Of a stretch of 54,570 nt of DNA, positions 7,661-39,055 are shown piece after piece. Numbering within the stretch: position 1 is the first letter of the stretch; the number at the start of each line of letters is the position of its first letter. Made by a program: the position numbers and the translations under genes. The notes below the pieces were generated by a model that saw only the letters and a list, made by a program, of their open reading frames with translations, did not search any database and was not told the DNA's origin. The stretch comes from Burkholderiales bacterium (lineage in GTDB: Bacteria > Pseudomonadota > Gammaproteobacteria > Burkholderiales > Burkholderiaceae_C), in NCBI GenBank assembly GCA_026932235.1, contig JAIXKR010000138.1, forward strand, positions 28,187 through 82,756. Reading direction: 5' to 3'.

Positions 7661-8020
7661 GAAGAGTCTCCCCGATCCGCCGCGGGCGCCCAAAGGGTTG
7701 CACATGCGTCCGTCTCCAGATGCGTGGCCAATCAGGGAATGCGCGGAGCCCAGCGCACTCTAGGTGGCCTAGGCTCGCGCGCCAGAGGGTAAGTGTCCAT
7801 TGACGCTCTGCCGAACGCTTGTTAGAATAACGGCCTGCAGCAACTTGCGAGCCGGCGTTTGGCGGGGTGATCACAGCCTCCCGCGGGTCGAGTTCGGTAG
7901 ATCGCAGGCAGGATCGCAGAAGAATGGCTCCGACTCGGGGGCCCGGAGACTTTCAGTGCCGACAAAGTACATAGACGCGCCTAACATTAGGCAGGTAACC
8001 AATCTGCAGGGGACAGCAAC
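7661..8020. other. intergenic region between MmgE/PrpD gene and importer operon
   Basis: This 360-bp stretch has no convincing gene. It contains the importer promoter and operator (7800-7828) and two inverted repeats. One is CTAGG-tgg-CCTAG at 7760-7772. The other is GCCTAA-ca-TTAGGC at 7979-7992, 29 bases before the TTG start at 8021. The second sits in the 5' leader and could be a further regulator site; its sequence differs from the 14-bp operator. Confidence 0.5.
7800..7828 (+). promoter_or_regulatory. promoter with embedded TetR-like operator, importer operon
   Basis: TTGACG (-35, 7800-7805), a 17-bp spacer and TAGAAT (-10, 7823-7828) make a good sigma70 promoter upstream of the gene at 8021. 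The 14-bp site CGAACGCTTGTTAG (7812-7825) fills the end of the spacer and overlaps the -10 box, a position suited to repression. The same site recurs at 24224 (minus strand), 35752 and 38726 (minus strand). Confidence 0.65.
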
Positions 8021-8818
8021 TTGAAGTCTGCCAACGAGGCTGTACCGGTCCTTGAGTGCCAGGGCATCGAACGCCGCTTCGGTGGCCTGGTGGCCGTGAC
8101 CGGCGTGGACTTGCGCATCGACCGCAGCGAGATTTTCGGCTTGGTCGGCCCCAACGGCAGCGGCAAGACAACACTGGTCAATGCCGTGACCGGGTTCTAC
8201 CCGCCGCAGAAGGGCCGCATCCTGCTGAACGGCACGGAGATCACGGGCATGAAGCCGCACAAGGTGGCGCGGCAGCATGTCGCCCGTACCTTCCAGAACT
8301 TGGCGCTGTTCAACGGCATGTCGGCGCTCGAGAACATCCTGCTCGGCCGCCATGTGCACCTGAACCCCGGCGTCGTCAAGACGGCGCTGTATTGGTGGCT
8401 GAGCCAGCCCGAGGAAATCGCGCACCGCCGGCTGTGCGAGGAGACGATCGAGTTCCTACAGCTTCAGGGCGTGCGCGACGAGCCGGTGGAAACATTGCCC
8501 ATCGGCCTGAAGAAGCGGGTGGAACTGGCCCGCGCGCTGGTCGCCGAGCCGGAGTTCCTGATCCTGGACGAACCGATGGCAGGCATGAACCAGGAGGAGA
8601 AGGAGTACATGGCGCGTTTCATCCTCGACGCGCGCGACGAGCGCGGCATCACGGTGCTGCTGATCGAACACCACATGGATGTCGTGATCGGCATCTGCGA
8701 CCGCATCATGGCCCTGAACTACGGCGAGGTCATCGGCACCGGTCTGCCGCGCGACGTGGTCGCCAACCCGCGCGTCATCGAAGCCTACCTCGGAAAGGCG
8801 CAGCAGCATGCAGCGTGA
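8021..8818 (+). CDS. livG: branched-chain-type ABC transporter ATP-binding protein LivG
   Basis: 265 aa from a TTG start with CAGGGGAC upstream. Walker A is 'GPNGSGKTT' (about 47-55), the Q-loop region reads 'VARTFQNLALF', Walker B is 'FLILDEP' and the switch His follows in 'LLIEHHMDVV'. The ABC signature is degenerate ('LPIGLKKRVELARAL'). The C-terminal 'NPRVIEAYLG' is typical of LivG/LivF-type ATPases of the hydrophobic amino acid family. It energises import together with the LivF gene at 16596. The acyl-CoA synthetase gene downstream overlaps by 11 bp. In view of the operon the substrate is more likely a carboxylic acid than an amino acid. Confidence 0.92.
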   Translation: MKSANEAVPVLECQGIERRFGGLVAVTGVDLRIDRSEIFGLVGPNGSGKTTLVNAVTGFYPPQKGRILLNGTEITGMKPHKVARQHVARTFQNLALFNGMSALENILLGRHVHLNPGVVKTALYWWLSQPEEIAHRRLCEETIEFLQLQGVRDEPVETLPIGLKKRVELARALVAEPEFLILDEPMAGMNQEEKEYMARFILDARDERGITVLLIEHHMDVVIGICDRIMALNYGEVIGTGLPRDVVANPRVIEAYLGKAQQHAA

Positions 8819-10751
8819 AGACCTTGCCCACGCTGCGGCGATGGCGCGGCAGTGGGACCTGAACCCGCAGACCACCCTGACCCGGCTGCTGGCCATCAAC
8901 GCCGGCAGCCATGGGCGCCAGATCGCCATGCGCGAGAAGGCGCTCGGCATCTGGCAGGAATTCACCTGGCAGCAAGTGCTCGACGAGGTGCTTTCCATCG
9001 CGGCCGGTCTCGAGCAGTTGGGGTTCACCGCCGGGGACTCGATGCTGGTGCTCGGCGACAACCGGGTTCGCCTGTACCTGGGCATGCTGGCCGCCGGCGC
9101 GCTCAAGGGCTATGCGATGCCGGTCTACCCTGACGCCACGCCCGAGGAGGTTCTCCATTTCGCCGGCGAGGCGCAAGCGCGCTTTGCGCTGGCCGAGGAC
9201 CAGGAGCAGGTCGACAAGCTGCTGGAACTGCGCGAGAACGCGCCATCGCTGCGGCACATCGTTTACGACGACCCGCGCGGTCTCAACCACTACAAGGTCG
9301 ATGGCCTAGCCTCGTGGGAGCAGCTGCGCGAGGCCGGCGCCGCCCGCCTGCGCAACGAACCGAATCTGCGCGACGATCTTGTCAATCGGGCGGTACCCGA
9401 GGGCCCGGCGGTGTTCGTGCACTCGTCGGGCACCACCGGCAAGCCCAAGGGCGTGGTGCTGCAGCAGCGCAACGTGCTCGCTGGAGTGCGCAACGCCTAC
9501 CAAGGCAAGGTCTTCGGCTGGGGCGAGCACATCCTGGCCTACCTGCCGATGGCCTGGATCGGCGACTTCGCCGTCACCATGGCCGCAGGCATCGCGCTGC
9601 GCTTCACCATCAACATTCCGGAACGCTCGGAAACCGTGCTGCGCAACCTGCGCGAGATCGCGCCCACGCTCTACCTCGCCGCGCCGCGCAGCTGGGACAA
9701 CATGCTGACCTCGATCCGGGTCCGCATGGAAGACTCCACGGCGCTGAAGAAGCGCGTCTTCGACCACTTCATCGATGTCGGCGTCGCCGTCGAGCGGCTG
9801 AAGCTCGATGGCAAGACCCCGACCGCGATGCAGCGCCTGCAATGCCGTCTGGGCGAGATGCTGGTGTTCGGACCCCTGAAGGACCAGTTCGGACTGAACC
9901 GCATGCGCGTGGCACTGACCGGCGGCGAGGCGATGGGCGAGGACACCTTCCTCTTCTATCGCGCGCTGGGCATCAACTTGCGCCAGCTCTACGGGCAGAC
10001 CGAGAGCAGTGCGTTCAACACAGTGCAGGCCGCAGACGAAGTGCGCCTGCACACGGTGGGCCGGCCGCTGCCAGGCGTGGACGTGAAGATCGCCGACGAC
10101 GGCGAGATCCTGCTGCGCTCGGAGAGCGTCTTCAGCGGCTATTTCCAGAACGAGGAAGCGACGCGCAAGACCATCATCGACGGCTGGCTGCAAAGCGGCG
10201 ACGCAGGCTACGTCGAACCTGACGGCCACCTGGTCGTGCTCGGACGGGTGGCCGAAGTCGTGCACACCGCCAAGGGCGAGCGCTACATCCCGAACTACAT
10301 CGAGAACCGGCTCAAGTTCAGCCCCTACATCAAGGACGTGGCTGTGCTCGGGACCGGGCGCGACTTCCTCTGCGCGATGGTGTGCATCGATGGTGAAGCC
10401 GTCGGTCACTGGGCCGAGGTGCGCGGCATTCCCTACATCTCGTACGCCGACCTGTCGCAGAAGGCCGAGGTGTGCGAGCTGGTCGCCAGCGCGATCCGGC
10501 GGCTGAACGAGGCTCTACCCGAGGGGCTGCGTATCCGGCGCTTCGTCGACTTGCACAAGGAGTTCGACCCCGACGACGGCGAGATCACGCGCACGCGCAA
10601 GCTGCGCCGCAACGTCATCGAAGAGCGCTATGCGTCCGTCATCCAGGCGCTCTATGCCGGTGATGAATCGATCGTCATGAAGGCGCAGATCACCTACGAC
10701 ACCGGTGACACCGGCGTGATCGAACGCAATCTTGTGCTGAGGACTCTTTGA
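8808..10751 (+). CDS. long-chain-type AMP-forming acyl-CoA synthetase
   Basis: 647 aa. The P-loop is 'HSSGTTGKPKG' (about 204-214), the adenylation motif 'LYGQTESS' (about 395-402) and the hinge 'GDAGYVEPDGHLVVLGR' are present, and the length matches the long-chain synthetase/FACS subgroup. The reaction is carboxylate + ATP + CoA to acyl-CoA + AMP + PPi. The gene lies inside the ABC importer operon, between livG (11-bp overlap) and livH (start at or a few bases after its stop). This suggests CoA activation is coupled to uptake, pulling substrate into the cell. No membrane segment is obvious, so it is probably cytoplasmic or peripheral. Confidence 0.92.
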   Translation: MQREDLAHAAAMARQWDLNPQTTLTRLLAINAGSHGRQIAMREKALGIWQEFTWQQVLDEVLSIAAGLEQLGFTAGDSMLVLGDNRVRLYLGMLAAGALKGYAMPVYPDATPEEVLHFAGEAQARFALAEDQEQVDKLLELRENAPSLRHIVYDDPRGLNHYKVDGLASWEQLREAGAARLRNEPNLRDDLVNRAVPEGPAVFVHSSGTTGKPKGVVLQQRNVLAGVRNAYQGKVFGWGEHILAYLPMAWIGDFAVTMAAGIALRFTINIPERSETVLRNLREIAPTLYLAAPRSWDNMLTSIRVRMEDSTALKKRVFDHFIDVGVAVERLKLDGKTPTAMQRLQCRLGEMLVFGPLKDQFGLNRMRVALTGGEAMGEDTFLFYRALGINLRQLYGQTESSAFNTVQAADEVRLHTVGRPLPGVDVKIADDGEILLRSESVFSGYFQNEEATRKTIIDGWLQSGDAGYVEPDGHLVVLGRVAEVVHTAKGERYIPNYIENRLKFSPYIKDVAVLGTGRDFLCAMVCIDGEAVGHWAEVRGIPYISYADLSQKAEVCELVASAIRRLNEALPEGLRIRRFVDLHKEFDPDDGEITRTRKLRRNVIEERYASVIQALYAGDESIVMKAQITYDTGDTGVIERNLVLRTL

Positions 10752-10753
10752 CC

Positions 10754-11641
10754 ATGGACTTGTCGCTGTTCCTAGAACTGGCCATCAACGGCGCCCTTTC
10801 GGGCCTGATGTATTCGCTGGTCGCACTGGGCATCGTGCTCATCTACAAGTCGTCTTCGGTGCCCAACTTGGCCCAGGGGGCGCTGGCCATGCTCGGCGCC
10901 TTCGTCGCACTGGCCGTCTTCGAGGCGTTGAAGGCGCCGATGTGGGTAGCCTTGCCGGTTGCGATGGTGCTGATGTTCCTGATCGGCATGGGCATCGAAC
11001 GCGTGGCGCTGCGCCGGCTTGCAGGCCGGCCGTTGGTGATGATCTTGATGATGACGCTGGCGCTCGACATCTTCGTGCGGGCAGCAGCACTCGTCGTCTG
11101 GGGCGGCACCAACCGGGTGCTGCCCTTGCCGATCTCCTCGGACCCGCTTTTCCTGGGCAACGTGCTGATCAACCGCAGCTACGTGGCCGGCGGCGTCACG
11201 GCTCTGCTGCTGTTCGGCTTCTTCGTGCTGTTCTTCCGCACCCGCACGGGCATCGTGCTGCGGGCGATCTCCGACGACTATACGGCGTCGTGGTCGGTCG
11301 GCATCTCGGTTGAACGAGGCGTCGCGCTGTCCTGGGCGATGTCAGCGGTCGTGGCAACCTTGGCCGGTGCGTTGTGGGGATCGATCCAGGGGGTGGACCA
11401 GTCGCTGTCGCAACTGCTGCTGATGGGTGTCGCCGTGGCCGTACTGGGCGGCCTGGACAGCATCGGCGGCGCCATCGTCGCCGGCCTGCTGCTGGGCATG
11501 TTCCAAGGCGTGGCCTCAGGCTACCTCGACCCCCTGGTCGGCGGCGGCAGCCGCGAACTCGTGGTCGCCGCGACGCTGGTGCTGACCATCCTGATCCGCC
11601 CGCATGGCCTGTTCGGCCGCGAAGACATCCAGAGGATCTGA
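10754..11641 (+). CDS. livH: branched-chain-type ABC transporter permease LivH
   Basis: 295 aa from ATG 10754; a TTG at 10748 in the same frame is a less likely alternative that would overlap the upstream stop. The sequence is strongly hydrophobic with about eight membrane segments. The N-terminal 'GALSGLMYSLVALGIVLIYK' and the cytoplasmic-loop segment 'RAISDDYTASWSVGISVE' fit LivH permeases. 'GVAVAVLGGLDSIGGAIVAG' is the conserved C-terminal permease motif. It forms the inner-membrane channel with LivM, whose start is 4 bp after this stop codon. Confidence 0.93.
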   Translation: MDLSLFLELAINGALSGLMYSLVALGIVLIYKSSSVPNLAQGALAMLGAFVALAVFEALKAPMWVALPVAMVLMFLIGMGIERVALRRLAGRPLVMILMMTLALDIFVRAAALVVWGGTNRVLPLPISSDPLFLGNVLINRSYVAGGVTALLLFGFFVLFFRTRTGIVLRAISDDYTASWSVGISVERGVALSWAMSAVVATLAGALWGSIQGVDQSLSQLLLMGVAVAVLGGLDSIGGAIVAGLLLGMFQGVASGYLDPLVGGGSRELVVAATLVLTILIRPHGLFGREDIQRI

Positions 11642-11645
11642 ATCC

Positions 11646-12719
11646 ATGTTCTACCGTCAGGCAGGCATCCACCACACCACCTATCGTGGTGACCGGCAAC
11701 TGTTCCCCATCCCCTTCGATCGCTGGCAACTCGCCGTTCTGCTGGCACTGGCCCTGGCGGCGCCGATGCTGCTGAGTTCGCTGTACATGAAGAGCTACGT
11801 ATTGCCGTGGCTCATCTGGACGGCTGCGGCGCTGGGACTCAATCTCATCCTCGGCTGGGCCGGGCAGTTCCATTTCGGCTACGCCGCCATCATGGGCATC
11901 GGCGCGTACACCGCAGTCCATGCCACGCGCAACGGCATTCCGTTCGAGATCGCCATCGCGCTCGCGGGCTCGGTCGCCACGCTCATCGGCTGCGCCTTCG
12001 CGATCACGGCGCTGCGCGTTCGCGGCCTGTACCTGGCGCTCAGCACGCTGGCCCTGCAGTTCGTGATGGACTGGGTGATCAACAAGGTGCCGGCCGTCAG
12101 CGGCGGCACGCAGGCCACGATCCAAGCACCACCGCTACGGCTGTTGGGCATCGAGGTCACGTCCGACGCCGGGCTGTACTACGTCGTGCTGGTCTGGTGC
12201 GTACTCGTCACCATCTTCATGCTCAACCTGCGCCGCACCGGTCTCGGCCGGGCGCTGGTGGCGGTGCGCGAGAAGGACTTCGCTGCCGCGGTCATCGGCG
12301 TCAACAGCTTCTACTACAAGCTGGTGGCGTTTGCGATGTCCTCCTTCATCGGCGGCATCAGCGGCGCCATCCTCATCTTTACCTTCTACCACGCCGTCAC
12401 GCCGGAACAGTTCGCCGTGAACGTGTCGATCCAGGTCCTGGCCATGGTGATCGTGGGCGGCCTGGGCAGCGTGATCGGCTGCTACTTCGGCGTCGCGTTC
12501 ATCTTGCTGCTGCCCGGCATCGTGGCGAATCTGATATTCGCAGGCGCCCAGATGATGGACCTGAAGATTGGCATCGAGCTGCTGGCCCACATCCCGAGTT
12601 TCCTGTACGGGATTCTGATCATCGGGTTTCTTCTGTTCGAACCATTGGGTCTGGCCAAGATCTACACGAACCTGCGCAACTATTTCATTTTCTGGCCGTT
12701 CGGCTACGCCCGCAAATAG
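11646..12719 (+). CDS. livM: branched-chain-type ABC transporter permease LivM
   Basis: 357 aa from ATG 11646, the start that places the gene 4 bp after livH. There are about nine hydrophobic segments. 'GLNLILGWAGQFHFGYAAIM' is the LivM signature region near the N-terminus and 'MVIVGGLGSVIGCYFGVAFI' the conserved permease motif. 'YRGDRQLFPIPFDRWQ' is the short N-terminal extension often seen in this family. The C-terminus ('GLAKIYTNLRNYFIFWPFG') matches members associated with aromatic or aliphatic acid import more than amino-acid importers; this last point is an impression, not a search result. Confidence 0.92.
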   Translation: MFYRQAGIHHTTYRGDRQLFPIPFDRWQLAVLLALALAAPMLLSSLYMKSYVLPWLIWTAAALGLNLILGWAGQFHFGYAAIMGIGAYTAVHATRNGIPFEIAIALAGSVATLIGCAFAITALRVRGLYLALSTLALQFVMDWVINKVPAVSGGTQATIQAPPLRLLGIEVTSDAGLYYVVLVWCVLVTIFMLNLRRTGLGRALVAVREKDFAAAVIGVNSFYYKLVAFAMSSFIGGISGAILIFTFYHAVTPEQFAVNVSIQVLAMVIVGGLGSVIGCYFGVAFILLLPGIVANLIFAGAQMMDLKIGIELLAHIPSFLYGILIIGFLLFEPLGLAKIYTNLRNYFIFWPFGYARK

Positions 12720-12762
12720 CGGCTCTCAACCCTGGACCCACCCCCCACTGGAGCAGACAACC

Positions 12763-14004
12763 ATGTACCGGAAACTCAAGCTGATGCTCGGCGCGGCCGC
12801 CGTGCTGCTAGCAGCCGCACCCGCGCACGCCGAAACTCTTCGCTTCGCGCTGTGCTATGACCTGACCAAGGCCTACACCTTCATCTCGCCGCAAGTCGCG
12901 CAGGCAGCGCGTGACTATGCCGCGTTGCTCAACCTGAAGGGTGGCATCGAGGGCAACCCGATCGAGCTCATCGTCCAGGACCATGGCAACGAGCCGCAGC
13001 GCGGCATCGAGTGCTACGAGAAGGTGAAGGACCAAGCGCTGACCGTCGATCCGCTGTCCACACCGGTCTCGCGAGCCGTGCTGCCACGCGCGATGAAAGA
13101 CGGCAAGATCATGATCCAGGCACTCGTGGGCCGTGGCGACGCGGTGGATGGCGAAGTGTTCAAGTGGATCTTCCCGCTCGGCCCGACCTATTGGGGCCAG
13201 GCCGCCAACATCGTCAGCCACTTCAAGAAGCAGTCCGGCGGCAACCTGAAGGGCAAGAAGATCGCGTTCCTGTACATCGACTACCCGTTCGGGCAAGAGC
13301 CGATTCCGGTGCTGCAGGAACTGCAGAAACGTGAAGGCTTCGAACTCCAGTTGTTCCCGTATCCGCTGCCGGGCAGCGACCAGTCGTCTGCCTGGTCGCA
13401 GCTGCGCCGTTTCCAGCCCGACCTGATCGTGCACTGGGCGTTCTCGGCCATGCACGTGGTCGCGTCAAAGGAGGCCAAGCGCAACGGCATATCGTTGGAC
13501 AAGATGGTCACCGTGAACTGGTTCAACGAGACAGACCTGAACAACATCGGTCACGACGTCGCCAAGGGCATTCGCCGGTCGACCACGGTCGCCAGCGGTG
13601 TCGACAACCCCATCATGAAGGACATCATTCGCGAGCTGTACGACAAGGGCAAGGGCAACGGCGACCGCAAGTTCCTCGACGACATCTACTACGCGACGGG
13701 GCTGTCCATCTACGCGCCCATCTTCGAGGCCGCCCGCTTGGCGCTGAAAGCAGACAAGGGCCCGATGACTGCGGAGAAGATGCGCAAGGGGCTGGAAAGC
13801 GTGCGCGGCTTTGACGCCAGCGGCCTGTTGCCGGCTCTCACGGTCACCGCCAAGGACCATGGCGGCGGCGGTAAGACACGGATCGAGTTGTGGGACGGCT
13901 CGAAGTGGATCCCGCAGGGGGACTGGATCGCCGACTACAACGATCTGGTCTGGAGCACGGTGAAGCAGCACTCGGCGGAATTCGCCAAATCCACGGGGCA
14001 GTGA
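12763..14004 (+). CDS. ABC transporter substrate-binding protein, copy 1 (LivK-like)
   Basis: 413 aa with a clear signal peptide ('LGAAAVLLAAAPAHA', cleavage probably before ETLRF), so the mature protein is periplasmic. The type I periplasmic-binding fold is recognisable by 'YDLTKAYTFISPQVAQAARD' and 'AALLNLKGGIEGNPIELIVQ'. A strongly conserved block 'FPLGPTYWGQAANIV' and the C-terminal 'DHGGGGKTRIELWDG' are shared with the two following genes. The family binds hydrophobic amino acids or aromatic/aliphatic acids. Shine-Dalgarno GGAGC lies before ATG 12763. A strong hairpin follows the stop codon. Confidence 0.92.
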   Translation: MYRKLKLMLGAAAVLLAAAPAHAETLRFALCYDLTKAYTFISPQVAQAARDYAALLNLKGGIEGNPIELIVQDHGNEPQRGIECYEKVKDQALTVDPLSTPVSRAVLPRAMKDGKIMIQALVGRGDAVDGEVFKWIFPLGPTYWGQAANIVSHFKKQSGGNLKGKKIAFLYIDYPFGQEPIPVLQELQKREGFELQLFPYPLPGSDQSSAWSQLRRFQPDLIVHWAFSAMHVVASKEAKRNGISLDKMVTVNWFNETDLNNIGHDVAKGIRRSTTVASGVDNPIMKDIIRELYDKGKGNGDRKFLDDIYYATGLSIYAPIFEAARLALKADKGPMTAEKMRKGLESVRGFDASGLLPALTVTAKDHGGGGKTRIELWDGSKWIPQGDWIADYNDLVWSTVKQHSAEFAKSTGQ

Positions 14005-14016
14005 CCGCCCTCTCCT

Positions 14017-14041
14017 CCCCACTGGCCAGCGGCCGGTGGGG
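14017..14041 (+). repeat. strong intercistronic hairpin between binding-protein copies 1 and 2
   Basis: CCCCACTGGCC (14017-14027), loop AGC, GGCCGGTGGGG (14031-14041): an 11-bp stem with one G-T wobble and a 3-base loop. It begins 12 bases after the stop of copy 1 and ends 27 bases before the start of copy 2. No T-run follows, so it is more likely a 3'-end stabiliser or partial attenuator than a full terminator. Confidence 0.7.
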
Positions 14042-14068
14042 AACACAAACCGAACAGGAGCAACCCAT

Positions 14069-15313
14069 ATGCGATCCAGTCTGAAGAGAGTACTGACGGC
14101 AGCCGCCTTGCTGGTCTCAACCCAGGCTACGCTGGCCGCAGAACCGGTCAAGTTCGGTTTGTGCTACGACCTGACGAAGATTTATGTCGCTGCCGTGCCA
14201 CAAGTGGCACAGGCCGTCAAGGACTACGCCGACCTGCTCAACACTCGCGGTGGCCTCGAAGGTCACCCGATCGAAGTCGCGGTTCAGGACCAAGGCAACG
14301 AACCGCAACGGGGCATCGACTGCTACGAGCGCCTGAAGCGTGAAGGCACGATGATTTTCGACACCTTCTCGTCGCCGGTCTCCCGCGCCGTGCTGCCGCG
14401 CATCATGCAGGACGGCAACATCCTGGTGCAGCCCCTGGTGGGCCGGGGTGACGCCGTCGACGGTGAAGTCTTCAAGCAGGTGTTTCCCTTGGCTCCCACC
14501 TATTGGGGCCAGGCGGCAAACATCATCAGCTACTTCAAGAAGCAGAGTGGGGGCAGCCTCAAGGGCAAGAAGGTAGCCTTCATGTACCTCGACACGCCCT
14601 TCGGCCGCGAGCCAACGCCGGTGTTTGAGGCTCTGAAGCGGCTCGAGAGCTTCGAGTACCAGCCCTTTCCAATCCCTGTGCCGGGCAATGACCAGAGTGC
14701 GGCGTTCACGCAGATGCGGCGCTTCCAGCCCGACTGGGTGGTCCTGTGGTCCTTCTCGCCGCTGAATCCCATCACCTTCCGCGAGATGCAGCGCAACGGC
14801 ATCCCGATCGAGAAGATGGTGACGGTGAACTGGATCAACGAGGTCGACATCAACAACTTTGGTGCCGCCGCCGCAAAGGGACTCAAACGCTCGACGGTCG
14901 TCGTCGGCGGCGCCGAGCATCCGTTGGTAAAAGACATCCTGCGCGAGCTCTACGACAAGGGCAAGGGCAATGGCGATCGCAAACTCGTCGCCGACTCCTA
15001 CTACAACACGGGTCTGGCCGTGTACTCGTCCGTCTTCGAAGGCGTGCGCATCGCCATCAAGACACAGGGCTGGCCGCTGACGCCGGAGAAGATCCGGCAA
15101 GGCATGTATGGCATCAAGAACTTCGATGCAAAGGGCTTCATGGCCCCGATCACCGTCACGCCCAAGGACCACGGTGGTGGCGGCAAGACCCGCATAGACA
15201 TGTGGGACGGCAGCAAGTGGGTGGCGCAGACCGACTGGTTCGCCGACTACACGGGCCTGGTCAACACGCTCGTCAAGGCCAATTCTGCAGACTTCGCCAA
15301 AGCCAACAAGTAA
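14069..15313 (+). CDS. ABC transporter substrate-binding protein, copy 2 (LivK-like)
   Basis: 414 aa from ATG 14069, chosen because CAGGAG lies about 9 bases upstream; the in-frame start at 14036 lacks this. Signal peptide 'VLTAAALLVSTQATLA' with cleavage before AEPVK. It is clearly paralogous to copies 1 and 3: shared blocks 'GLCYDLTKIYVAAVPQVAQ', 'FPLAPTYWGQAANII', 'ELYDKGKGNGDRK' and 'DHGGGGKTRIDMWDGSKWV'. The first binding-cleft region differs ('IYVAAVPQ' against 'AYTFISPQ' and 'AYGFISPQ'), which may change ligand preference. Confidence 0.92.
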   Translation: MRSSLKRVLTAAALLVSTQATLAAEPVKFGLCYDLTKIYVAAVPQVAQAVKDYADLLNTRGGLEGHPIEVAVQDQGNEPQRGIDCYERLKREGTMIFDTFSSPVSRAVLPRIMQDGNILVQPLVGRGDAVDGEVFKQVFPLAPTYWGQAANIISYFKKQSGGSLKGKKVAFMYLDTPFGREPTPVFEALKRLESFEYQPFPIPVPGNDQSAAFTQMRRFQPDWVVLWSFSPLNPITFREMQRNGIPIEKMVTVNWINEVDINNFGAAAAKGLKRSTVVVGGAEHPLVKDILRELYDKGKGNGDRKLVADSYYNTGLAVYSSVFEGVRIAIKTQGWPLTPEKIRQGMYGIKNFDAKGFMAPITVTPKDHGGGGKTRIDMWDGSKWVAQTDWFADYTGLVNTLVKANSADFAKANK

Positions 15314-15342
15314 GCCGCCCGTTCGGCGCGAGGAGACAAGAC

Positions 15343-16593
15343 ATGTACAAATCGTGGAGAGCGGCGCTTGCCGCCCTGACGTTCTTGACCGCGGGGCAAG
15401 CCGCCTGGGCGGCCGACCCGATCAAGTTCGGGCAGTGTTACGACCTGACCAAGGCCTACGGCTTCATCTCGCCTCAGATCGCGCAGGCCTCGCGCGACTT
15501 GGCCTCGCTGATCAACGCGAAAGGCGGCATCGGTGGCCGGCCGATCGAACTGCTGCTCAACGATCACGGCAACGAGCCGCAGCGCGGCGTGGAATGCTAC
15601 GAGCGCCTGAAGCGAGACGGCGTAGTGGTGTTCGACTTCTTCTCGACTCCGGTCGCGCGCGCGTTGCTGCCCCGCGTGATGCAGGACGGCAATATCCAGC
15701 TCCAGGCGATACATGGTCGTGCCGACGCTGTCGACGGTGAGGTCTTCAAGTCGGTGTTCCCGCTCGGTCCGACCTACTGGGGCCAGGCCGCGAACATGAT
15801 CAGCTACATCAAGCGGCAGGCCGGCGCGAACATCAAGAGCACGAAGGTCGCGTTCCTCTACGCCGACTACCCGTTCGGACACGAGCCGATCCCGATCCTG
15901 CAGGAGTTGCAGAAGCGCGAGGGCTTCGAACTGCAGATGTTCCCCTACCCGTTGCCGGGCAACGATGTCAGTTCCGCGATGAGCCAGATTCGACGCTACC
16001 AGCCGGACTGGATCGTGCACTGGGGCATCGGGCCCATGAATGTCGTCGCCCTGAAGGAGATGAAGCGCAGCGGCATCCCGAACGAGAAGTTCATCACCGT
16101 CAACTGGCTCAACGAAGCCGACATCACCAATATCGGCGCCGAGGCGGCCAAGGGCGCGAAGCGCTCCTCAGTAGTGGTAGGCGGCGGCACCGACACTCCG
16201 CTGCTGCGAGAGATCACGAAGGAGTTGTACGACAAGGGCAAGGGCAACGGTGACCGCAAGTTCTTGAACGACACCTACTACAACCTGTCCCTGGCGATCT
16301 GGTCCACCGTGTTCCAGGGCGTGGAACTCGGCCTGAAAAACGACCCCGGCCCGTTGACCGCCGACAAGGTGCGCAAGGGTCTGGAAAGCCTGCGCAATTA
16401 CGACGCCAATGGCCTGTTTCCCCCGCTGACGATCACCGCGAAGGACCACGGCGGCGGCGGCAAGACCCGCATCGACATGTGGGACGGCAGCAAGTGGGTT
16501 CCCCAAACCGACTGGTTCGCCGACTACACGGATCTGGTCTGGAGCACGGTGAAACAACACTCTGCCGAGTTCGCCAAATCTGGAAAAAATTGA
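15343..16593 (+). CDS. ABC transporter substrate-binding protein, copy 3 (LivK-like)
   Basis: 416 aa from ATG 15343 with AGGAGA at 15331-15336. Signal peptide 'LAALTFLTAGQAAWA', cleavage before ADPIK. It resembles copy 1 more closely than copy 2: 'YDLTKAYGFISPQIAQASRD', 'FLYADYPFGHEPIPILQELQ' and 'KREGFELQMFPYPLPG' have near-identical counterparts in copy 1. It ends 2 bp before the GTG of livF. Three tandem binding proteins on one permease set suggest import of several related ligands. Confidence 0.92.
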   Translation: MYKSWRAALAALTFLTAGQAAWAADPIKFGQCYDLTKAYGFISPQIAQASRDLASLINAKGGIGGRPIELLLNDHGNEPQRGVECYERLKRDGVVVFDFFSTPVARALLPRVMQDGNIQLQAIHGRADAVDGEVFKSVFPLGPTYWGQAANMISYIKRQAGANIKSTKVAFLYADYPFGHEPIPILQELQKREGFELQMFPYPLPGNDVSSAMSQIRRYQPDWIVHWGIGPMNVVALKEMKRSGIPNEKFITVNWLNEADITNIGAEAAKGAKRSSVVVGGGTDTPLLREITKELYDKGKGNGDRKFLNDTYYNLSLAIWSTVFQGVELGLKNDPGPLTADKVRKGLESLRNYDANGLFPPLTITAKDHGGGGKTRIDMWDGSKWVPQTDWFADYTDLVWSTVKQHSAEFAKSGKN

Positions 16594-16595
16594 CC

Positions 16596-17387
16596 GTGAA
16601 CGCCCTCATCCTCAACAACATCGAGGTCATCTACGACCACGTCTTCCTGGCCATCAAGGGCGTTTCCATCGAGGTGCCACAGGGCGGCATGGTCGCCCTG
16701 TTGGGCGCCAACGGCGCCGGCAAGAGCACCACGCTGAAGGCGGTGAGCGGGCTGCTCAAGTCCGAGCGTGGCGAGATCACGCGTGGCGACGTGAAGTTCA
16801 TGGGCGAGGACATCGCCAAGCTGGCGCCGCAGGACCGGGTCAAGCTGGGCATCGCCCAGGTGCTCGAAGGCCGTCGTGTCTTCGAGCACCTGACACCCGA
16901 CGAGAACCTCATTGCGGCTTCTGCCGTGCATGGCGGCAAGGCCGACATGGAGCGCAACCGCGACCGGGTGTACTCCTACTTCCCCCGCCTGCACCAGCGC
17001 CGCACCGCCAAGTCGGGCTACCTGTCCGGCGGCGAACAGCAAATGCTGGCCATTGCACGCGCGCTGATGACGCAGCCCAAGCTGCTCATGCTCGACGAGC
17101 CGAGCCTGGGCCTCGCGCCGGTGATCGTCGCCGAGATTTTCGAGATCATCCGGCGCATCAACCGCGATGAAGGCATGTCGATCCTGCTGGTCGAGCAGAA
17201 CGCCATCGCGGCGCTGGACGTCGTGTCGCACGGCTACCTGATCGAGAACGGCCGCGTCGTCATGCACGAGAAGGCCGAGGTCATGAAGAACAACCCGGAC
17301 ATCCGCGAGGCCTACCTCGGCGGCGCCGAGGGGCGCGATTTCAAGGAGATCAAGCACTACCGGCGCCGCAAGCGCTGGCTGGCCTGA
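16596..17387 (+). CDS. livF: branched-chain-type ABC transporter ATP-binding protein LivF
   Basis: 263 aa from GTG 16596, 2 bp after the preceding stop. Walker A 'GANGAGKSTT', ABC signature 'LSGGEQQMLAIARAL', Walker B 'LLMLDEPSLGLAP' and switch 'LLVEQN' are all intact. 'NPDIREAYLGG' is the usual LivF C-terminus; a basic tail ('KEIKHYRRRKRWLA') extends it by about 20 residues beyond the common end. This longer LivF form is known in acid importers, but its role here is not known. It works with LivG to drive the LivHM permease. Confidence 0.93.
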   Translation: MNALILNNIEVIYDHVFLAIKGVSIEVPQGGMVALLGANGAGKSTTLKAVSGLLKSERGEITRGDVKFMGEDIAKLAPQDRVKLGIAQVLEGRRVFEHLTPDENLIAASAVHGGKADMERNRDRVYSYFPRLHQRRTAKSGYLSGGEQQMLAIARALMTQPKLLMLDEPSLGLAPVIVAEIFEIIRRINRDEGMSILLVEQNAIAALDVVSHGYLIENGRVVMHEKAEVMKNNPDIREAYLGGAEGRDFKEIKHYRRRKRWLA

Positions 17388-18342: not shown

Positions 18343-18741
18343 TCAGGCCGGTGTGAATACCGGCAAGGGTGGCCCATCCTCGCTCGGGCTGAACTTCAGC
18401 TTCACCGGCTGCCCGATGCGCACCGCGTCGGCATCGGCGTCGACGATGTTGGTCATCATCGTCGGCCCCTCCTCGAGCGTCACGTAGGCCACCACATACG
18501 GCACCTCGGCCCTGCGCATGACGCTGAAGCTGTAGATCGTGCCCTGCCCGCTCGCCTGCCGCCACTGCGTGCGCTCGCTGCCGCAGAACGGGCAGGCCGC
18601 GCGAGGGTAGTGGTGGTGCTCGCCGCAGTCGTCGCAGCGTTTGACGAGCAGCCGGCCTTCGGCCGCGGCTTCCCAGAACGGCCGCGTTTCCGGGGTGACG
18701 GTGGGTGCGGCCATCTCGCGCCGTCCGATGGTGATGCTCAT
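18343..18741 (-). CDS. DUF35 (Zn-ribbon/OB-fold) partner protein, pair 2
   Basis: 132 aa from ATG 18741, which overlaps the TGA of the upstream thiolase-like gene (ATGA). Zinc ribbon with two CxxC pairs (CDDC and CPFC, about 38-54), then the OB-fold 'GQGTIYSFSVMRRAE'. The N-terminus 'TRPFWEAAAEGRLLVKRC' is the helix that contacts the thiolase-fold partner in known complexes. It is the last gene of the 24173-18343 operon and converges on the esterase. DUF35 proteins are required for activity of Ltp2-type retro-aldolases. Confidence 0.88.
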   Translation of the reverse strand: MSITIGRREMAAPTVTPETRPFWEAAAEGRLLVKRCDDCGEHHHYPRAACPFCGSERTQWRQASGQGTIYSFSVMRRAEVPYVVAYVTLEEGPTMMTNIVDADADAVRIGQPVKLKFSPSEDGPPLPVFTPA

Positions 18742-19904
18742 TCGCGCTCCAGGATCAGGGTGGCACTGCCGTGCCGGGTGCCGAGCGATCCACCGGTGCC
18801 ATGCGCCAGCGCGAGCCTGCAATTGGGCACCTGCACCAACGGATGCGCCTCGCCGCGCAACTGGCGCACCGCTTCAATGACCTTTGTCATGCCGCCGCGA
18901 TTTCCCGGGTGGTTGTTGCACAGGCCGCCGCCGTCGGTGTTGAAGGGCAGCTTGCCGGCGCCGGAGATCAGGTTGCCGTCGGACACGAACCGGCCGCCCT
19001 CGCCCTTCTTGCAGAAGCCCAGGTCCTCCAGCGTCAGCAGCACGGTGATCGTGAAGCTGTCGTAGATCGACGCGTACTGGATGTCGGCGGGCTTCACGCC
19101 GGCCTCGGCGAATGCCGCCGCGCCGGTCCAGGCCGCGCCGGTCGTCAGCAGGTCCACCTTACCGCCGATCTGCGCGCGCATGAACTCGCCGGTGCCGATG
19201 ACCTTGACCAGCGGACGCTCGAGCTGACGTGCGATCTCCGGCCGGACCACGACGAGCGCGCCGCCGCCGTCGCTGATGACGCAGCAGTCGAGCCGGTGCA
19301 GCGGGTCGGCGATCATCGGCGAGCCGACCACGTCCTGCACCGTCACCACGTCGCGCACCATCGCGTGCGGGTTGTGCTGGGCGTGGTGCGACGCGGCCAC
19401 GCGGATCCAGGCCAGCTGTTCGCTGGTGGTGCCGTGCTCGTGCATGTGGCGCATGGCGGCCATGGCATACATGTTGACGGTGGTCGGCGCGTAGGGCAGC
19501 TCGAACGACACGTCGGGCGCAGGGCCGTAGTTGCGCGGCGCGGTGCCGGTGGCCATGCCCTCGGCCTTGGGCCGCCCGGCCAGCGTGATCAGTGCCACGT
19601 TGCAGCGGCCGGCGGCGATGGCCGCCGCGGCATGCGCGACGTGCACCACGTACGAGGAGCCACCGGTCTCGGTGGTGTCGACGTGCCGGAGCGTCATGCC
19701 CATGTAGTCGACCATGCTCAACGCACCCAGGCCGGGCGCGTCGCCGGCGCAGAAGTAGCCGTCGACGTCACGCATCGTCAGGCCGGCATCGGCGAGTGCA
19801 CCGCGCGCGACCTCGGCATGCAGTTGCGCCACCGACTTGTCGTCGGCGCGACGGATCGGGTGCTCGTAGGCCCCCGCGATGTAGGCCTTTCCCTTCAGGC
19901 TCAT
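18738..19904 (-). CDS. thiolase-like, putative acyl-CoA retro-aldolase, pair 2
   Basis: 388 aa from ATG 19904 (ATGA overlap with the MaoC-like gene). At the nucleophile position it reads 'TETGGSSYVV' (about 78-87) with no Cys. At the catalytic His position of SCP2 thiolases it reads 'IYDSFT' with Tyr281. 'FNTDGGGLCNNHPG' (about 321-334) is the conserved NxxGG loop and 'AHGTGGSLGTRHG' replaces the C-terminal Cys-Gly motif. Loss of Cys with Tyr in place of His is what is expected for Ltp2-like enzymes that cleave beta-hydroxyacyl-CoA with a tertiary alcohol into a ketone and propionyl- or acetyl-CoA. The reaction is inferred from family resemblance and context. Confidence 0.82.
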   Translation of the reverse strand: MSLKGKAYIAGAYEHPIRRADDKSVAQLHAEVARGALADAGLTMRDVDGYFCAGDAPGLGALSMVDYMGMTLRHVDTTETGGSSYVVHVAHAAAAIAAGRCNVALITLAGRPKAEGMATGTAPRNYGPAPDVSFELPYAPTTVNMYAMAAMRHMHEHGTTSEQLAWIRVAASHHAQHNPHAMVRDVVTVQDVVGSPMIADPLHRLDCCVISDGGGALVVVRPEIARQLERPLVKVIGTGEFMRAQIGGKVDLLTTGAAWTGAAAFAEAGVKPADIQYASIYDSFTITVLLTLEDLGFCKKGEGGRFVSDGNLISGAGKLPFNTDGGGLCNNHPGNRGGMTKVIEAVRQLRGEAHPLVQVPNCRLALAHGTGGSLGTRHGSATLILERE

Positions 19905-20290
19905 GGGTTTGCCTTGGCAGGCTTGATGGTGGCCGCGCCCTTGATGACGTCCAGGCCCTTGCCGTTGCGCACCCAGACGTCGTAAACCGGCGGCTGGCTG
20001 CCCTCGCGCAGCTCGCCGCCGCCGGTCACGTCGTCGTCGATGCGCACCGGCTGCACGAAGCGGATCTCCAGGTGCACGCGGTTCAGCGCGTCGACGCCCA
20101 GCGTGTTCTTCAGCGCCTGCCAGATCAGCGCCACCGACATCGTGCCGTGCGCGATGATCCCGCCCATCGGGCTCCTGGCGGCGAACTCCTTGTCGACGTG
20201 AATCGGGTTGTAGTCGTTCGTCACCGCCGCGTAGGCCATGATGGTGTCGAAGTCGACGTGCTTGGTCGATGCCTTCAGCTGCTTGTCCAT
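19901..20290 (-). CDS. MaoC-like hot-dog (R)-enoyl-CoA hydratase subunit with catalytic motif
   Basis: 129 aa, a single hot-dog domain. The hydratase motif is complete: 'TNDYNPIHVDKEFAA' (about 24-38) gives the D-x-N-P-x-H signature with catalytic Asp and His. 'GGIIAHGTMSVALIWQ' is the following conserved helix. A 9-bp gap separates it from the FAS1-like gene, and it overlaps the downstream thiolase-like gene by 4 bp. With the FAS1-like protein it can form the heteromeric hydratase known for ChsH1/ChsH2, in which one subunit carries the catalytic residues and the other opens the acyl pocket. Confidence 0.85.
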   Translation of the reverse strand: MDKQLKASTKHVDFDTIMAYAAVTNDYNPIHVDKEFAARSPMGGIIAHGTMSVALIWQALKNTLGVDALNRVHLEIRFVQPVRIDDDVTGGGELREGSQPPVYDVWVRNGKGLDVIKGAATIKPAKANP

Positions 20291-20299
20291 GGTGGCCCC

Positions 20300-21117: not shown

Positions 21118-21119
21118 GG

Positions 21120-22271: not shown

Positions 22272-22284
22272 GCTTGGTCTCGTG

Positions 22285-24220: not shown

Positions 24221-24249
24221 AGGCTAACGAACGTTAGACAGTTCGTCAA
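24221..24249 (-). promoter_or_regulatory. promoter with embedded TetR-like operator, hydratase/aldolase operon
   Basis: On the minus strand: TTGACG (-35, 24249-24244), 17-bp spacer, TAGCCT (-10, 24226-24221). The near-perfect inverted repeat CTAACG-aa-CGTTAG occupies 24224-24237. The distance from -35 to operator (6 bp) and the overlap with the first three bases of the -10 are identical to those at 7800-7828. Confidence 0.65.
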
Positions 24250-29023: not shown

Positions 29024-29027
29024 GACC

Positions 29028-34628: not shown

Positions 34629-34642
34629 ATGATGAGCGAAAT

Positions 34643-35751: not shown

Positions 35752-35765
35752 CTAACGTTAGTTAG
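35752..35765 (+). promoter_or_regulatory. TetR-like operator upstream of the porin gene
   Basis: CTAACGTTAGTTAG differs in one base from the reverse complement of the site at 24224 (CTAACGTTCGTTAG). It lies 118 bp upstream of the porin start. A good -35/-10 pair at the fixed distance seen for the other sites is not visible here (GGCGTT-17-TAGGCA at best), so the promoter is uncertain. Confidence 0.5.
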
Positions 35766-35883: not shown

Positions 35884-36978
35884 GTGAACCTTCGACATCT
35901 TCTCGTTGGCACTCTCGGCATATCAGCTGCCGCCGTTGCACATGCGCAATCCTCCGTCACGCTGTACGGACTGATCGATGTCGCTCCGGCATCGTTCAGC
36001 CGAACGACGGCGGCGGATGACCGCATGTCCAAGTTGAACAGCGACACTGGAAGTTCATCGCGCTTCGGCGTGAGAGGCACGGAAGACCTCGGCGGCGGTC
36101 TGGCGGCCTTCTTCAACCTCGAATCTCCGATCGACCCGAAGAGCGGCGCCGTCTCGGGCGGCGCGAGCTCCGGCGCCTGCAATCCCGCCGCAGGATGTGC
36201 CGCGGCAACGACTGCGGCGTTCTGGCGCCGCAACGCCTATGTCGGACTGAAGGGATCGTTCGGCGAGGTCACCCTCGGCCGAAACTACACTGCTGCGGTC
36301 ATCAAGCAGGCCGGTACACTCAGCGCCACCCCATCGGGCATCAATACCGGTATGGGCCTGACACTGCTGTCTCAGGGCATCAGCAACGACTTCTGGAACA
36401 GCAACCAGATTCGCTACGACAGCCCTCGCCTGGGTCCGGTCGACTTCGCCGTCCACGTGGCGCTGGGTGAAGGCACCACGGGCAGAAACGTCGGCGGCAA
36501 TATCCGATTCCTGCAGGGGCCTGTCGCGGTTTCGCTGAGTGTCCAGAAGGATGAGAACCTCGCCGGCAAGAGCGTCACCTGGACCATGCTTTCCGGTTCG
36601 TACGACTTCGGCGCTTTCAAGCTCCACGCAGGGGCCAACACCGTTGACAACGACGACGGCGTGGTGGGTTTCGTCGACTCCAGCCTCTGGACCGTCGGCG
36701 GCAGTTTCAAGGCCACGCCGCAACTCACCCTGGCCACGCAGTACTGGACGGTGAAGGAGAAGGTCGGTACGTCCACGTCCAGCAAGTTGTTGGTGCTGAA
36801 CGCCGACTATGCACTGTCCAAGCGCAGCTTCCTGTACGCGATGTTCGGCTATGCCGACAGCAAGGATCTCGGAATCGCGCCCTTGTGGGGCAACGGGAAC
36901 TTCTCGGGTACGGGCAACGTCATCGCTGCCAACGACAAGAACAACGGGCTTGCGATCGGTATCCGGCACGTGTTCTGA
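35884..36978 (+). CDS. outer-membrane porin (Gram-negative OmpC/Omp32-type)
   Basis: 364 aa from GTG 35884 with AAGGAG at 35871-35876. Signal peptide 'LVGTLGISAAAVAHA', mature start 'QSSVTLYGLIDVA', typical of betaproteobacterial general porins. 'SSSRFGVRGTEDLGGGLAAF' (about 57-76) and 'AYVGLKGSFGEVTLGRN' are the usual early strands; the protein ends in Phe ('GLAIGIRHVF'), the signal for outer-membrane assembly. It should form a trimeric beta-barrel channel. Because the shared operator lies upstream, it may be the entry pore for the substrate of the catabolic genes. A terminator follows. Confidence 0.95.
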   Translation: MNLRHLLVGTLGISAAAVAHAQSSVTLYGLIDVAPASFSRTTAADDRMSKLNSDTGSSSRFGVRGTEDLGGGLAAFFNLESPIDPKSGAVSGGASSGACNPAAGCAAATTAAFWRRNAYVGLKGSFGEVTLGRNYTAAVIKQAGTLSATPSGINTGMGLTLLSQGISNDFWNSNQIRYDSPRLGPVDFAVHVALGEGTTGRNVGGNIRFLQGPVAVSLSVQKDENLAGKSVTWTMLSGSYDFGAFKLHAGANTVDNDDGVVGFVDSSLWTVGGSFKATPQLTLATQYWTVKEKVGTSTSSKLLVLNADYALSKRSFLYAMFGYADSKDLGIAPLWGNGNFSGTGNVIAANDKNNGLAIGIRHVF

Positions 36979-37016
36979 TGTCTCCTAGGTTGCCTCTCAG
37001 CGGAGGCATCCATTGC

Positions 37017-37047: not shown

Positions 37048-37057
37048 GTTCCCGTGG

Positions 37058-37489
37058 TCAACGGCCAGCCGGCCTGAAACGCGGCAACACGACTTGGTCG
37101 TTGATGGGTTCGCAGACCAACTCCACAGCCATATCGAACTGCACGGCCATGGGATCGCCGCCGACCAGGGAGCTGATCATCCGCGGCCCTTCGGCCAGTT
37201 CGACCAACAACACGGCATAGGGCGTGTCTTGCTTGAAGGCAGGGCCCGGTGCGCGATGCACCACGCTGAAGGAGTGCACGACGCCGCGCCCGCTGGCGGC
37301 GCGATGCTCGAGGGCCTCGCTGCCACATTGGCGACAGATCGACTGCTGATAGAACTGGACATGGCCGCAGCCTGTGCAGTGTTGCAGCAGCAGCCGACCG
37401 TCCTTCAGACCCTGCCAGTAGGCCTGCGAGTCCAGGTCGGGCGTGGGCAGCGGCTTGATGTGAGCCTCCTTGGGTTCGATGCGTCTCAC
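37058..37489 (-). CDS. DUF35 (Zn-ribbon/OB-fold) partner protein, pair 4
   Basis: 143 aa from GTG 37489, overlapping the stop of the thiolase-like gene (GTGA). Zinc ribbon with two CxxC pairs (CTGC and CRQC, about 38-55) and OB-fold 'GRGVVHSFSVVHRAPGPAF'. 'DSQAYWQGLKDGRLLLQHC' is the N-terminal helix. The ending 'NDQVVLPRFRPAG' is the usual DUF35 C-terminus. It faces the porin terminator and closes a two-gene operon. Confidence 0.88.
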   Translation of the reverse strand: MRRIEPKEAHIKPLPTPDLDSQAYWQGLKDGRLLLQHCTGCGHVQFYQQSICRQCGSEALEHRAASGRGVVHSFSVVHRAPGPAFKQDTPYAVLLVELAEGPRMISSLVGGDPMAVQFDMAVELVCEPINDQVVLPRFRPAGR

Positions 37490-38691
37490 AGCGTGGCCTC
37501 CGTTCCCAGAATCGTGGTCGCCTGGGTCGCGAATCCCGCCCCCAAGCTGTGTACCAGGCCGAGTTCCGCGCCCGTCACCTGACGCTGGCCACATTCACCG
37601 CGCAATTGCTGCACCACTTCCAGGAAGTGCAGCAGCGAGCCCGGCATGCCCGGATGGGCGTAGGACAACAGACCCCCATGGGTGTTACAAGGTATGCTGC
37701 CACCGTGGGTGATCTGGCGGTCATCGACAAAGCGCCCGCCCTCGCCCTTGGGGCAGAAGCCCAGGTCTTCCAGCATCATGATCACAGTCCCGGTGAAGCA
37801 GTCGTAGACGCCTGCGACATCGATGTCTCTCGGCGAGCAGCCCGCCATGGCGTAGGCCTTGGCACTGGATTGGACGGCACCGGTGGTGGTGAGCGACGGC
37901 ATCAGGAAGATGTGCTCATGCGTGTAACACTCGCCGGCACCAAGAATGTAGATCGGCTTGGTCCTGCAGGCGCCGGCGCGATCGGCCGCGCTGACGACGA
38001 ACGCGACGGCGCCGTCAGAGATCAAGGAACAATCCAGCTTGTGGTACGGGGTGGTCACCCAACCGGAGTTCAACACGTCGTCGACGGTGATCGGCGTCGT
38101 CATCTGCGCGCCGGGCGTTCGCATGGCGTGCTCGCGATGGATCACCGCGACCTTGGCGAACTGTTCCGCCGTGGTGCCGAACTCCTTCATATGCCTGTGC
38201 GCCGTCATGGCGAAGGTGTTTGCCACGGGGATGCCGAAGGGCATTTCGTATTGCTGGTCACGGCTCTCGGTCATCGAGCGCAACGCCAAGTCTGGAGACA
38301 AGCCGGTGAGCAGGCTGTCGGCACCAAGAACCAGGACGTTGTCGGCCAAGCCTCCGGCAATGGCCGCAGCTGCGATGTTGAACATCGTCGCGGCCGTCGC
38401 GCCCGACACCTGCAACGTGTTCGAGAAAGTCGGCACGAGGCCGAAGTACTCGCTGAACGCCACGCTGAAGCGGTGGAACGGCGCCGCGAAGGCCGAACTG
38501 GTCAGCACCCCGTCGATCTGCGAGCGCTCGATCCCAGCGTCGGCCAGCGCGGCTTTGGCAGCTTGGGAAGCCAGCGCCATGACGCTCTTGTCAGGCACAC
38601 GCCCGACATCGGAGCGGCCTGCGCCGACGATGGCGACCTGCCCACGAATGCTTCGTCGGCCGGCGATGGCGTTCGACACCGGGATTGCCAT
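37486..38691 (-). CDS. thiolase-like, putative acyl-CoA retro-aldolase, pair 4
   Basis: 401 aa from ATG 38691 with AAAGGG upstream. The nucleophile region is 'NTLQVSGATAATM' (about 91-103), without Cys. The catalytic His position is Tyr296 in 'GVYDCFTGTV'. 'CNTHGGLLSYAHPGMPGS' is the NxxGG loop and retains a His, unlike pairs 1-3. The C-terminal CxG motif is replaced by 'VHSLGAGFA'. It is the first gene of its own unit, 35 bp downstream of the operator at 38726, and is paired with the DUF35 gene by a 4-bp overlap. Confidence 0.83.
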   Translation of the reverse strand: MAIPVSNAIAGRRSIRGQVAIVGAGRSDVGRVPDKSVMALASQAAKAALADAGIERSQIDGVLTSSAFAAPFHRFSVAFSEYFGLVPTFSNTLQVSGATAATMFNIAAAAIAGGLADNVLVLGADSLLTGLSPDLALRSMTESRDQQYEMPFGIPVANTFAMTAHRHMKEFGTTAEQFAKVAVIHREHAMRTPGAQMTTPITVDDVLNSGWVTTPYHKLDCSLISDGAVAFVVSAADRAGACRTKPIYILGAGECYTHEHIFLMPSLTTTGAVQSSAKAYAMAGCSPRDIDVAGVYDCFTGTVIMMLEDLGFCPKGEGGRFVDDRQITHGGSIPCNTHGGLLSYAHPGMPGSLLHFLEVVQQLRGECGQRQVTGAELGLVHSLGAGFATQATTILGTEATL

Positions 38692-39055
38692 GGTGATGGG
38701 CCCTTTCTAAGTGATCCTTCTGATTCTAACAATCGTTCGTTCGCTTCGCGATCAACGGAGTGCTGAAACTGAGCAGATCGCTGGCCGCGCTGAACTTGTG
38801 CCTGTTCTTGGTTCAGTGGCTTGCGTTGACCTCGACCGTGTTCCTGGTATGGGACGTGGACTCTCGGTGACCTGCGGTCGCGAAGCAGGAGTCGCTGGCG
38901 CATGGCTCCGATCAATTCGCGACGAAGATCTCTCCGGGCATCAGTCGGAGACGCGAGTCGTCTCGCTGGTGTAGCGGAAGTGCGCGAAAAAGGAGCTTCA
39001 GTCCGCACCCACCGCCCAGCACGTTGACCATGACCACGATCTGGCACACCGGCCT
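38692..39055. other. intergenic region; possible hydrophobic micro-ORF
   Basis: A 364-bp gap holding the operator at 38726-38739. On the plus strand a GTG-started frame at 38760-38870 encodes 36 residues with a strongly hydrophobic core (about 24 residues around 'NLCLFLVQWLALTSTVFLVW'), like a single membrane segment. The ribosome-binding site is poorly placed, so this is only a candidate. Nothing else is seen between 38871 and 39055. Confidence 0.3.
38726..38739 (-). promoter_or_regulatory. TetR-like operator upstream of thiolase/DUF35 pair 4
   Basis: On the minus strand this reads CGAACGATTGTTAG and continues as AAT, so 17 bases (CGAACG-a-TTGTTAGAAT) match the site at 7812 with one change, including the TAGAAT -10 box. 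A -35 at the 17-bp distance is poor; a TTGATC lies 21 bp before the -10. The site is 35 bp upstream of the start codon. Confidence 0.6.

Follow-up and report, generated by a model that had tools for sequence, protein, structure and literature searches.

The window analyzed here is a 54,570-nucleotide stretch of a Burkholderiales draft genome (GenBank assembly GCA_026932235.1, contig JAIXKR010000138.1, positions 28,187 to 82,756; G000:C117:28187-82756 in our numbering), and it carries four copies of a 14-bp element placed before gene groups that look suited to uptake and breakdown of an organic acid. The draft totals 3.86 Mb in 169 contigs, with 80.93% completeness and 5.84% contamination. An initial annotation of the window had proposed that the element is a common operator for four units, whose contents agree with Pfam: an importer operon, a hydratase/thiolase operon (hydratase/aldolase below), a Porin_4 gene, and a thiolase plus ChsH2 pair (Table 1). 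The importer operon encodes an ATP-binding cassette (ABC) ATPase, an AMP-binding acyl-CoA ligase (8841-10751), two BPD_transp_2 permeases, three Peripla_BP_6 proteins, and a second ATPase; the three Peripla_BP_6 solute-binding-protein genes are consecutive within this one operon (12763-16593). The hydratase/aldolase operon encodes an ECH_1 protein, an NMO-family flavoprotein, a thiolase with a ChsH2-type partner, a 133-amino-acid protein without a Pfam match, a MaoC protein, and a second thiolase with a ChsH2-type partner. The four elements are real, related bacteria keep this kind of element alongside a repressor gene that lies elsewhere in the genome, and we consider it probable from sequence comparisons that the elements are shared operators that serve a TetR-family repressor of acyl-CoA catabolism, with TetR2 (described below) the best candidate.

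Table 1. Features of the four units and of the three TetR genes; coordinates without a contig label are those of the window.
Feature	Coordinates	Strand	Basis or remark
-35 TTGACG of importer promoter	7800..7805	+	operator inside 17-bp spacer
Operator CGAACGCTTGTTAG of importer operon	7812..7825	+	exact consensus match
-10 TAGAAT of importer promoter	7823..7828	+	first three bases are the operator's last three
Importer operon	8021..17387	+	gene calls and Pfam on all eight proteins; first start codon uncertain
Hydratase/aldolase operon	18343..24173	-	gene calls and Pfam
-10 TAGCCT of hydratase/aldolase promoter	24221..24226	-	weak, poorer than TAGAAT
Operator CTAACGTTCGTTAG of hydratase/aldolase operon	24224..24237	-	exact consensus match
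-35 TTGACG of hydratase/aldolase promoter	24244..24249	-	6 bp before operator
Candidate operator CTAACGTTAGTTAG before porin	35752..35765	+	exact consensus match; assignment ambiguous
Gram-negative porin, Porin_4	35884..36978	+	Pfam
Thiolase (37486-38691) and ChsH2-type partner (37058-37489)	37058..38691	-	Pfam
-10 TAGAAT of thiolase/ChsH2 promoter	38723..38728	-	seen in sequence
Operator CGAACGATTGTTAG of thiolase/ChsH2 pair	38726..38739	-	exact consensus match
TetR1	C117:17695-18318		site CGAACATACGTTAG in own promoter; about 18 kb from first window site
TetR2	G000:C158:172677-173312	-	site CTAACGCTTGTTAG in own promoter
TetR3	C162:33344-33994		two own operators, CTAACGAACGTTAG and CTAACAAGCGTTCG

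The four elements have the sequence, place, and strand claimed for them and are the only exact consensus matches in the window, with none in 100 dinucleotide shuffles; allowing up to two mismatches gives nine window matches against a mean of 2.89. At the importer and hydratase/aldolase promoters, TTGACG is followed after 6 bp by the operator, and a 17-bp spacer leads to a hexamer that starts with the operator's last three bases. The proposal that the operator lies inside the promoter spacer thus holds for these two sites, but not for the others: the thiolase/ChsH2 operator does run into TAGAAT as described, with no TTGAC seen at the right distance, and at the porin site, for which the initial annotation had put forward neither, no -35 or -10 element is seen. 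The composite TTGAC-N7-CNAACGNTNGTTAG matches the window twice (7800-7825 on the plus strand, 24224-24249 on the minus strand) and the 298 family genomes five times (control, 0), all in this genome, G217, and G273, and all at the importer or hydratase/aldolase promoter or their orthologs.

Genome-wide, with the reversed motif as the control, the asymmetric pattern CKAACGNNNGTTAG is found exactly at 10 places, four in the window and the rest on contigs C134, C158, and C162, and the symmetric palindromic form CNAACRNNYGTTNG at 26 places versus 4 for the control. The comparison with chance that the initial annotation had called for therefore favors the symmetric motif but not the asymmetric one at one mismatch, which is unenriched (48 versus 87); the excess resides in the exact matches and the symmetric form. 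A loose symmetric motif occurs at 1.8 to 4.8 times the control in G001-G011 and at 0.3 to 1.6 times in G012-G018. In 297 kb of contigs, chosen for holding sites and gene-called with our own script (coding fraction, 0.90), all 15 sites scoring at least 16 bits on the operator matrices are intergenic; at 14.5 bits, 20 are intergenic (three being second registers of the same site) and 3 lie within genes. The neighboring genes encode carboxyl transferase, acyl-CoA dehydrogenase, thiolase, FadJ-like, short-chain dehydrogenase/reductase (SDR), FadH/OYE-like, and uptake functions.

Lack of conservation in related strains was the second outcome that the initial annotation had named as refuting a shared operator, but sites are conserved in related genomes. 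The importer ligase has relatives (E <= 1e-200) in 14 of 299 family genomes, its own included, and we inspected 1,500 bp upstream of each (about 1,000 bp in G112). A strict operator is present in five (G000, G217, G273, G240, and G310); it is identical to CGAACGCTTGTTAG in G217, G273, and G310 and is CTAACGCTTGTTAG in G240, so that the core AACGCTTGTTAG is unchanged in four further genomes. The G153 importer promoter has a one-mismatch site, and no operator was found within the stretch inspected in the remaining eight. TTGACG at the matching spacing is retained before the importer in G217 and G273. The hydratase is found (E <= 1e-60) in 7 of 299 family genomes, six of them, from four genera, at 83% identity or more; its promoter has a strict operator in G000 and G217 (CAAACGTTTGTTAG) and matches with one mismatch to the eight core bases in G273, G153, G240, and G310, each of which is weak on its own, the three from one genus not being independent. 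No operator lies upstream of the hydratase gene of G073 (60% identity). In G217 and G273, a one-mismatch core match lies within about 65 bp of the start of the thiolase ortholog (chance, about 6% each), and the three Extensimonas orthologs have no match upstream, where the stretch resembles the end of another gene. The linkage of four units is accordingly uneven: the thiolase/ChsH2 pair is a weaker member, with weak ortholog support, and the porin is joined by its sequence match. The porin site shares ACGTTAGTTAG with an extended operator of TetR1 (see below), which makes its regulator, and its candidate membership in the regulon, ambiguous.

The window itself holds no TetR_N match, consistent with the claim that the regulator is encoded outside it; the PF00440 profile finds 15 matches in the genome, 14 of them over the cut-off. 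The site lists show motif copies adjoining three TetR genes, all outside the window and over that cut-off, rather than the single regulator envisaged. One of them, TetR1, lies within 50 kb and carries the motif in its promoter, as in the search that the initial annotation suggested, yet all four window sites better fit the operator of TetR2 on contig C158. All three have a palindromic operator in their own promoter, a layout of autoregulation, and their recognition helices differ (GIKAGSIYYHF, GMTSGSLFYHF, and GMKAASLYHHF among the three proteins). No NCBIfam family scores over its cut-off for any of them; among solved structures, the one nearest to TetR2 in sequence is chain 4mxm_A, 'Transcriptional regulator I2' (E 8.4e-46).

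Among 79 loci found with TetR1 as the query (the best 80 of 160 stretches were retained), there are 83 motif sites versus 2 control matches in 1.39 Mb. The strict motif lies no more than 125 bp ahead of the match start in 30 of the 79 (16 close relatives, 10 alphaproteobacterial, and 4 actinobacterial) and is missing before the other 49, including a sister group of 20 near 70 to 80% identity. A TetR1-type promoter site is present in 17 loci of one clade (support, 98/97; counts for this and the TetR2 clade include some near-copies), its own genome included. All 17 operators extend to GTTAGTTAG, with a second TTAG as a third half-site 4 bp on (17603-17620 of L041 on C117, and promoters in L055-L069 and L094), perhaps for two dimers. 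The TetR1 promoters of three Extensimonas loci (L082, L086, and L087) have no CGAACATACGTTAG-type site. Separately, the homologs at L070, L078, L081, and L085 are without the -95 site and have CCTAACTAACRACCG in common, adjoining the start codon. The TetR2 clade (21 loci; support, 99/97) has C(T/A)AACGCTTGTTAG just before the gene in 20 and CTAACGTTCGTTAG in the other (L199), which equals the window site at 24224, that site being identical to the TetR2-promoter operator of G002. In its sister clade, four of eight loci have CAAGCGCTTG no more than 200 bp upstream of the gene and a fifth has CAAGTGCTTG (these five being L220-L223 and L226); two others have looser forms and one has none.

Operator classing and co-occurrence point to TetR2 as the regulator. 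On matrices built from the unique operators of other genomes (three and four distinct sequences), the window sites score higher with TetR2 than with TetR1: 18.7 versus 12.1 bits at 7812, 20.0 versus 15.3 at 24224, 18.7 versus 13.8 at 35752, and 16.7 versus 12.5 at 38726. TetR2 (E <= 1e-50) occurs in 6 of 298 family genomes, the same six whose hydratase is at least 83% identical, and it is present in all six ligase genomes with a strict or one-mismatch site and in none of the eight without. In a class-wide sample, TetR2 relatives at E <= 1e-40 occur in 3 of 369 genomes, its own included (the others at 46% and 41%), and the 441 plasmid records that match TetR2 are all under 60% identity (best, 41.6%).

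Several observations weigh against this assignment. Three of the six TetR2 genomes belong to one genus and are not six independent events, the matrices rest on few distinct sequences, and the core match at four of the six hydratase promoters has one mismatch, a quality that chance yields in about 5% of 200-bp stretches. The Extensimonas importer promoters (G240 and G310) keep the operator without TTGAC. The thiolase ortholog of G074, a genome without TetR2, carries the strict site CGAACGGACGTTTG, and about 5 kb from it is a TetR gene whose identity to TetR3, 38%, is at the level shown by TetR1 orthologs. The remaining points concern the paralogs. TetR1 lies nearer and may well share the six-genome distribution of TetR2; G217, G273, and the Extensimonas genomes contain it too. 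The two operators of TetR3 match the elements at 24224 and 7812 letter for letter, so that on sequence TetR3 could act at the window sites through crosstalk.

That TetR1, as the nearest TetR gene, governs the window sites is unlikely. The related CGAACATACGTTAG-type site stands in its promoter throughout one clade, and its distance from the importer operator, about 18 kb here, is about 11 kb in G273; nevertheless, the window sites lie 4 to 7 bits lower on its matrix, and at the Extensimonas loci its promoter is siteless, yet the importer retains a TetR2-type site in G240 and G310. TetR1 as the sole regulator was set aside on this operator classing. Control by TetR3, perhaps jointly with TetR2 through overlapping regulons and crosstalk in this genome, seems to us somewhat less probable still. 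The identity of CTAACGAACGTTAG and CTAACAAGCGTTCG with the sites at 24224 and 7812 is what it would explain, but TetR3 orthologs above 70% identity occur in only 2 of 32 other genomes searched (G113 and G214), both without the importer operator, and none is seen in G240, G310, G010, or G004 (the last two being, we infer, G217 and G273), where that operator is kept. On account of this rarity, TetR3 was set aside as the conserved regulator.

A non-TetR regulator, for example a LiuR-like MerR-type activator binding within the spacer, has little to recommend it: MerR proteins do typically bind inside the promoter spacer, but MerR promoters have a spacer of 19-20 bp rather than the 17 bp found here, and three TetR genes, together with many homologs of theirs, bear the motif. 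Chance matching is given next to no credence. The asymmetric one-mismatch counts and the values in G012-G018 are what chance would produce; symmetric enrichment, the composite promoter matches, the shuffles, and intergenic placement all oppose it, and ortholog conservation rules it out for 7812 and 24224, whereas the site at 35752 may yet be a chance match. Beyond the choice of regulator, it is conceivable, though we hold it only tentatively, that the three paralogs share one operator code, in which identical CNAAC/GTTNG half-sites are sorted among repressors by the central bases and by the third TetR1 half-site (CNAACAKWCGTTAGTTAG). A similarly speculative extension is that in-between operators, such as the porin site and C158:202411 (T1 16.2, T2 16.2), might be read by several repressors and so sum several acyl-CoA signals.

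For regulation by TetR2, we infer repression, its ligand, and the pairing of regulator with sites from sequence, and the steps would be as follows. Lodged in a 17-bp spacer, a TetR dimer would compete directly with RNA polymerase, as is established for the family. A substrate-free TetR2 dimer on CNAACGNTNGTTAG in the -35/-10 spacer would bar RNA polymerase from the promoters of the importer and hydratase/aldolase operons, and probably also from that of the thiolase. The importer would take up the acid, the ligase encoded with it would form the CoA thioester, and this thioester, or an early product, would probably release TetR2 from the DNA, a step suggested by the genes of the cluster and by relatives. 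TetR2 would also repress itself, through an operator shared with divergent acyl-CoA dehydrogenase-thiolase-FadJ-like genes. The sister repressors TetR1 and TetR3, which sit beside acyl-CoA carboxylase and dehydrogenase operons, would use the same half-sites, TetR1 with a different center.

Several known systems are similar in kind. PsrA, the Pseudomonas repressor of fatty acid degradation, is likewise a TetR-family protein with two xAAAC/GTTTx halves at beta-oxidation genes; its operator is given as [G/C]AAAC(N2-4)GTTT[G/C] (PMC10304680), whereas the motif here is C[T/G/A]AAC-N4-GTT[A/C/T]G. TetR1, TetR2, and TetR3 score 42.2, 36.8, and 40.5 bits, respectively, on the Vibrio-type NCBIfam PsrA model, below its cut-off of 300. 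AtuR and RdmA, of acyclic terpene and diffusible signal factor (DSF) catabolism, respectively, resemble TetR2 as TetR repressors adjoining acyl-CoA catabolism genes with an operator by the -10, but the AtuR operators are AGCAAGCGCTTGG and CCAAGCGCTTGCT (PMC9973270), not CTAACGCTTGTTAG; elements like the AtuR operator stand before five of the eight genes of the TetR2 sister clade, and the TetR2 clade itself has C(T/A)AACGCTTGTTAG in 20 of 21 loci. BkaR, a mycobacterial branched-chain keto-acid repressor, is an autoregulated TetR protein encoded beside accD1/accA1 carboxylase and fadE genes, a setting like that of TetR1 and TetR3; its motif, GTTA(N)T(N4)A(N)TAAC (PMC3920632), has the half-sites in the opposite order. 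KstR, the actinobacterial cholesterol regulator, has a large regulon and a palindromic operator that overlaps the -10 element in lipid catabolism promoters, but its operator, TnnAACnnGTTnnA, differs from the motif here (PMC1995591). On the KstR model (cut-off, 280), TetR1 scores 32.1 and TetR2 24.3 bits, and TetR3 is not listed.

FadP, predicted for fatty acid degradation and proposed for most Burkholderiales species (PMC12543098), is also a TetR-family protein beside a beta-oxidation operon with many operons per genome (PMC5343134, PMC12543098). TetR2, by contrast, is confined to the six family genomes at the threshold used, below which a diverged FadP could fall; its distribution does not support identifying it with FadP, a comparison that leaves the FadP motif aside. 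Any of the three TetR proteins may be linked to FadP or to LiuQ (PMC5343134, PMC12543098). Of six operator strings (five 14-mers and one 12-mer) sought in literature text, the 12-mer alone was found, in an unrelated paper. With the operators of PsrA, AtuR, BkaR, and KstR differing from the motif here in half-site or layout, the network is probably undescribed, although ordinary in kind, TetR repressors of acyl-CoA catabolism being already known.

Motif-like sites occur at other genes as well. They lie upstream of SDR genes starting MDLELK.KSVIVTGGGSNIGRA at L243 1982-1995 (G310:C1:206981), where that genome's importer operator is about 11 kb away, and at L048 16061-16074 (C158:236060); a CTAACGGTAGTTAG site lies at a second importer operon, which includes an AMP ligase of its own and stands at a contig end (C134:67388; L052 17389-17402). 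Genes for E1 alpha, E1 beta, and E2 of a 2-oxoacid dehydrogenase-type complex occupy 27779-31779 of the window, and their sole motif match is weak and inside a gene (31746-31759). Of ten window enzymes compared with NCBIfam, only the protein of 18738-19904 exceeds a cut-off among the matches listed (PRK08142 thiolase subfamily; for the hydratase, 25 of 70 matches were listed). A steroid C/D-ring pathway was considered: the CoA-transferase-like pair at 4650-6298 matches chains that we take to be of IpdAB and AibAB type weakly (57.1 bits or less) and the flavoprotein of the hydratase/aldolase operon is a generic FabK/NMO protein, and we therefore claim no pathway.

A likely repressor, an operator, and a promoter layout are now assigned to a cluster for acid uptake and CoA-dependent degradation whose hydratase gene is common to four genera in the sample. 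The paralogous repressors and their operators form a natural set for studying how TetR specificity diverges, and derepression, or a TetR2-based sensor, would provide a handle for finding the substrate of the cluster.

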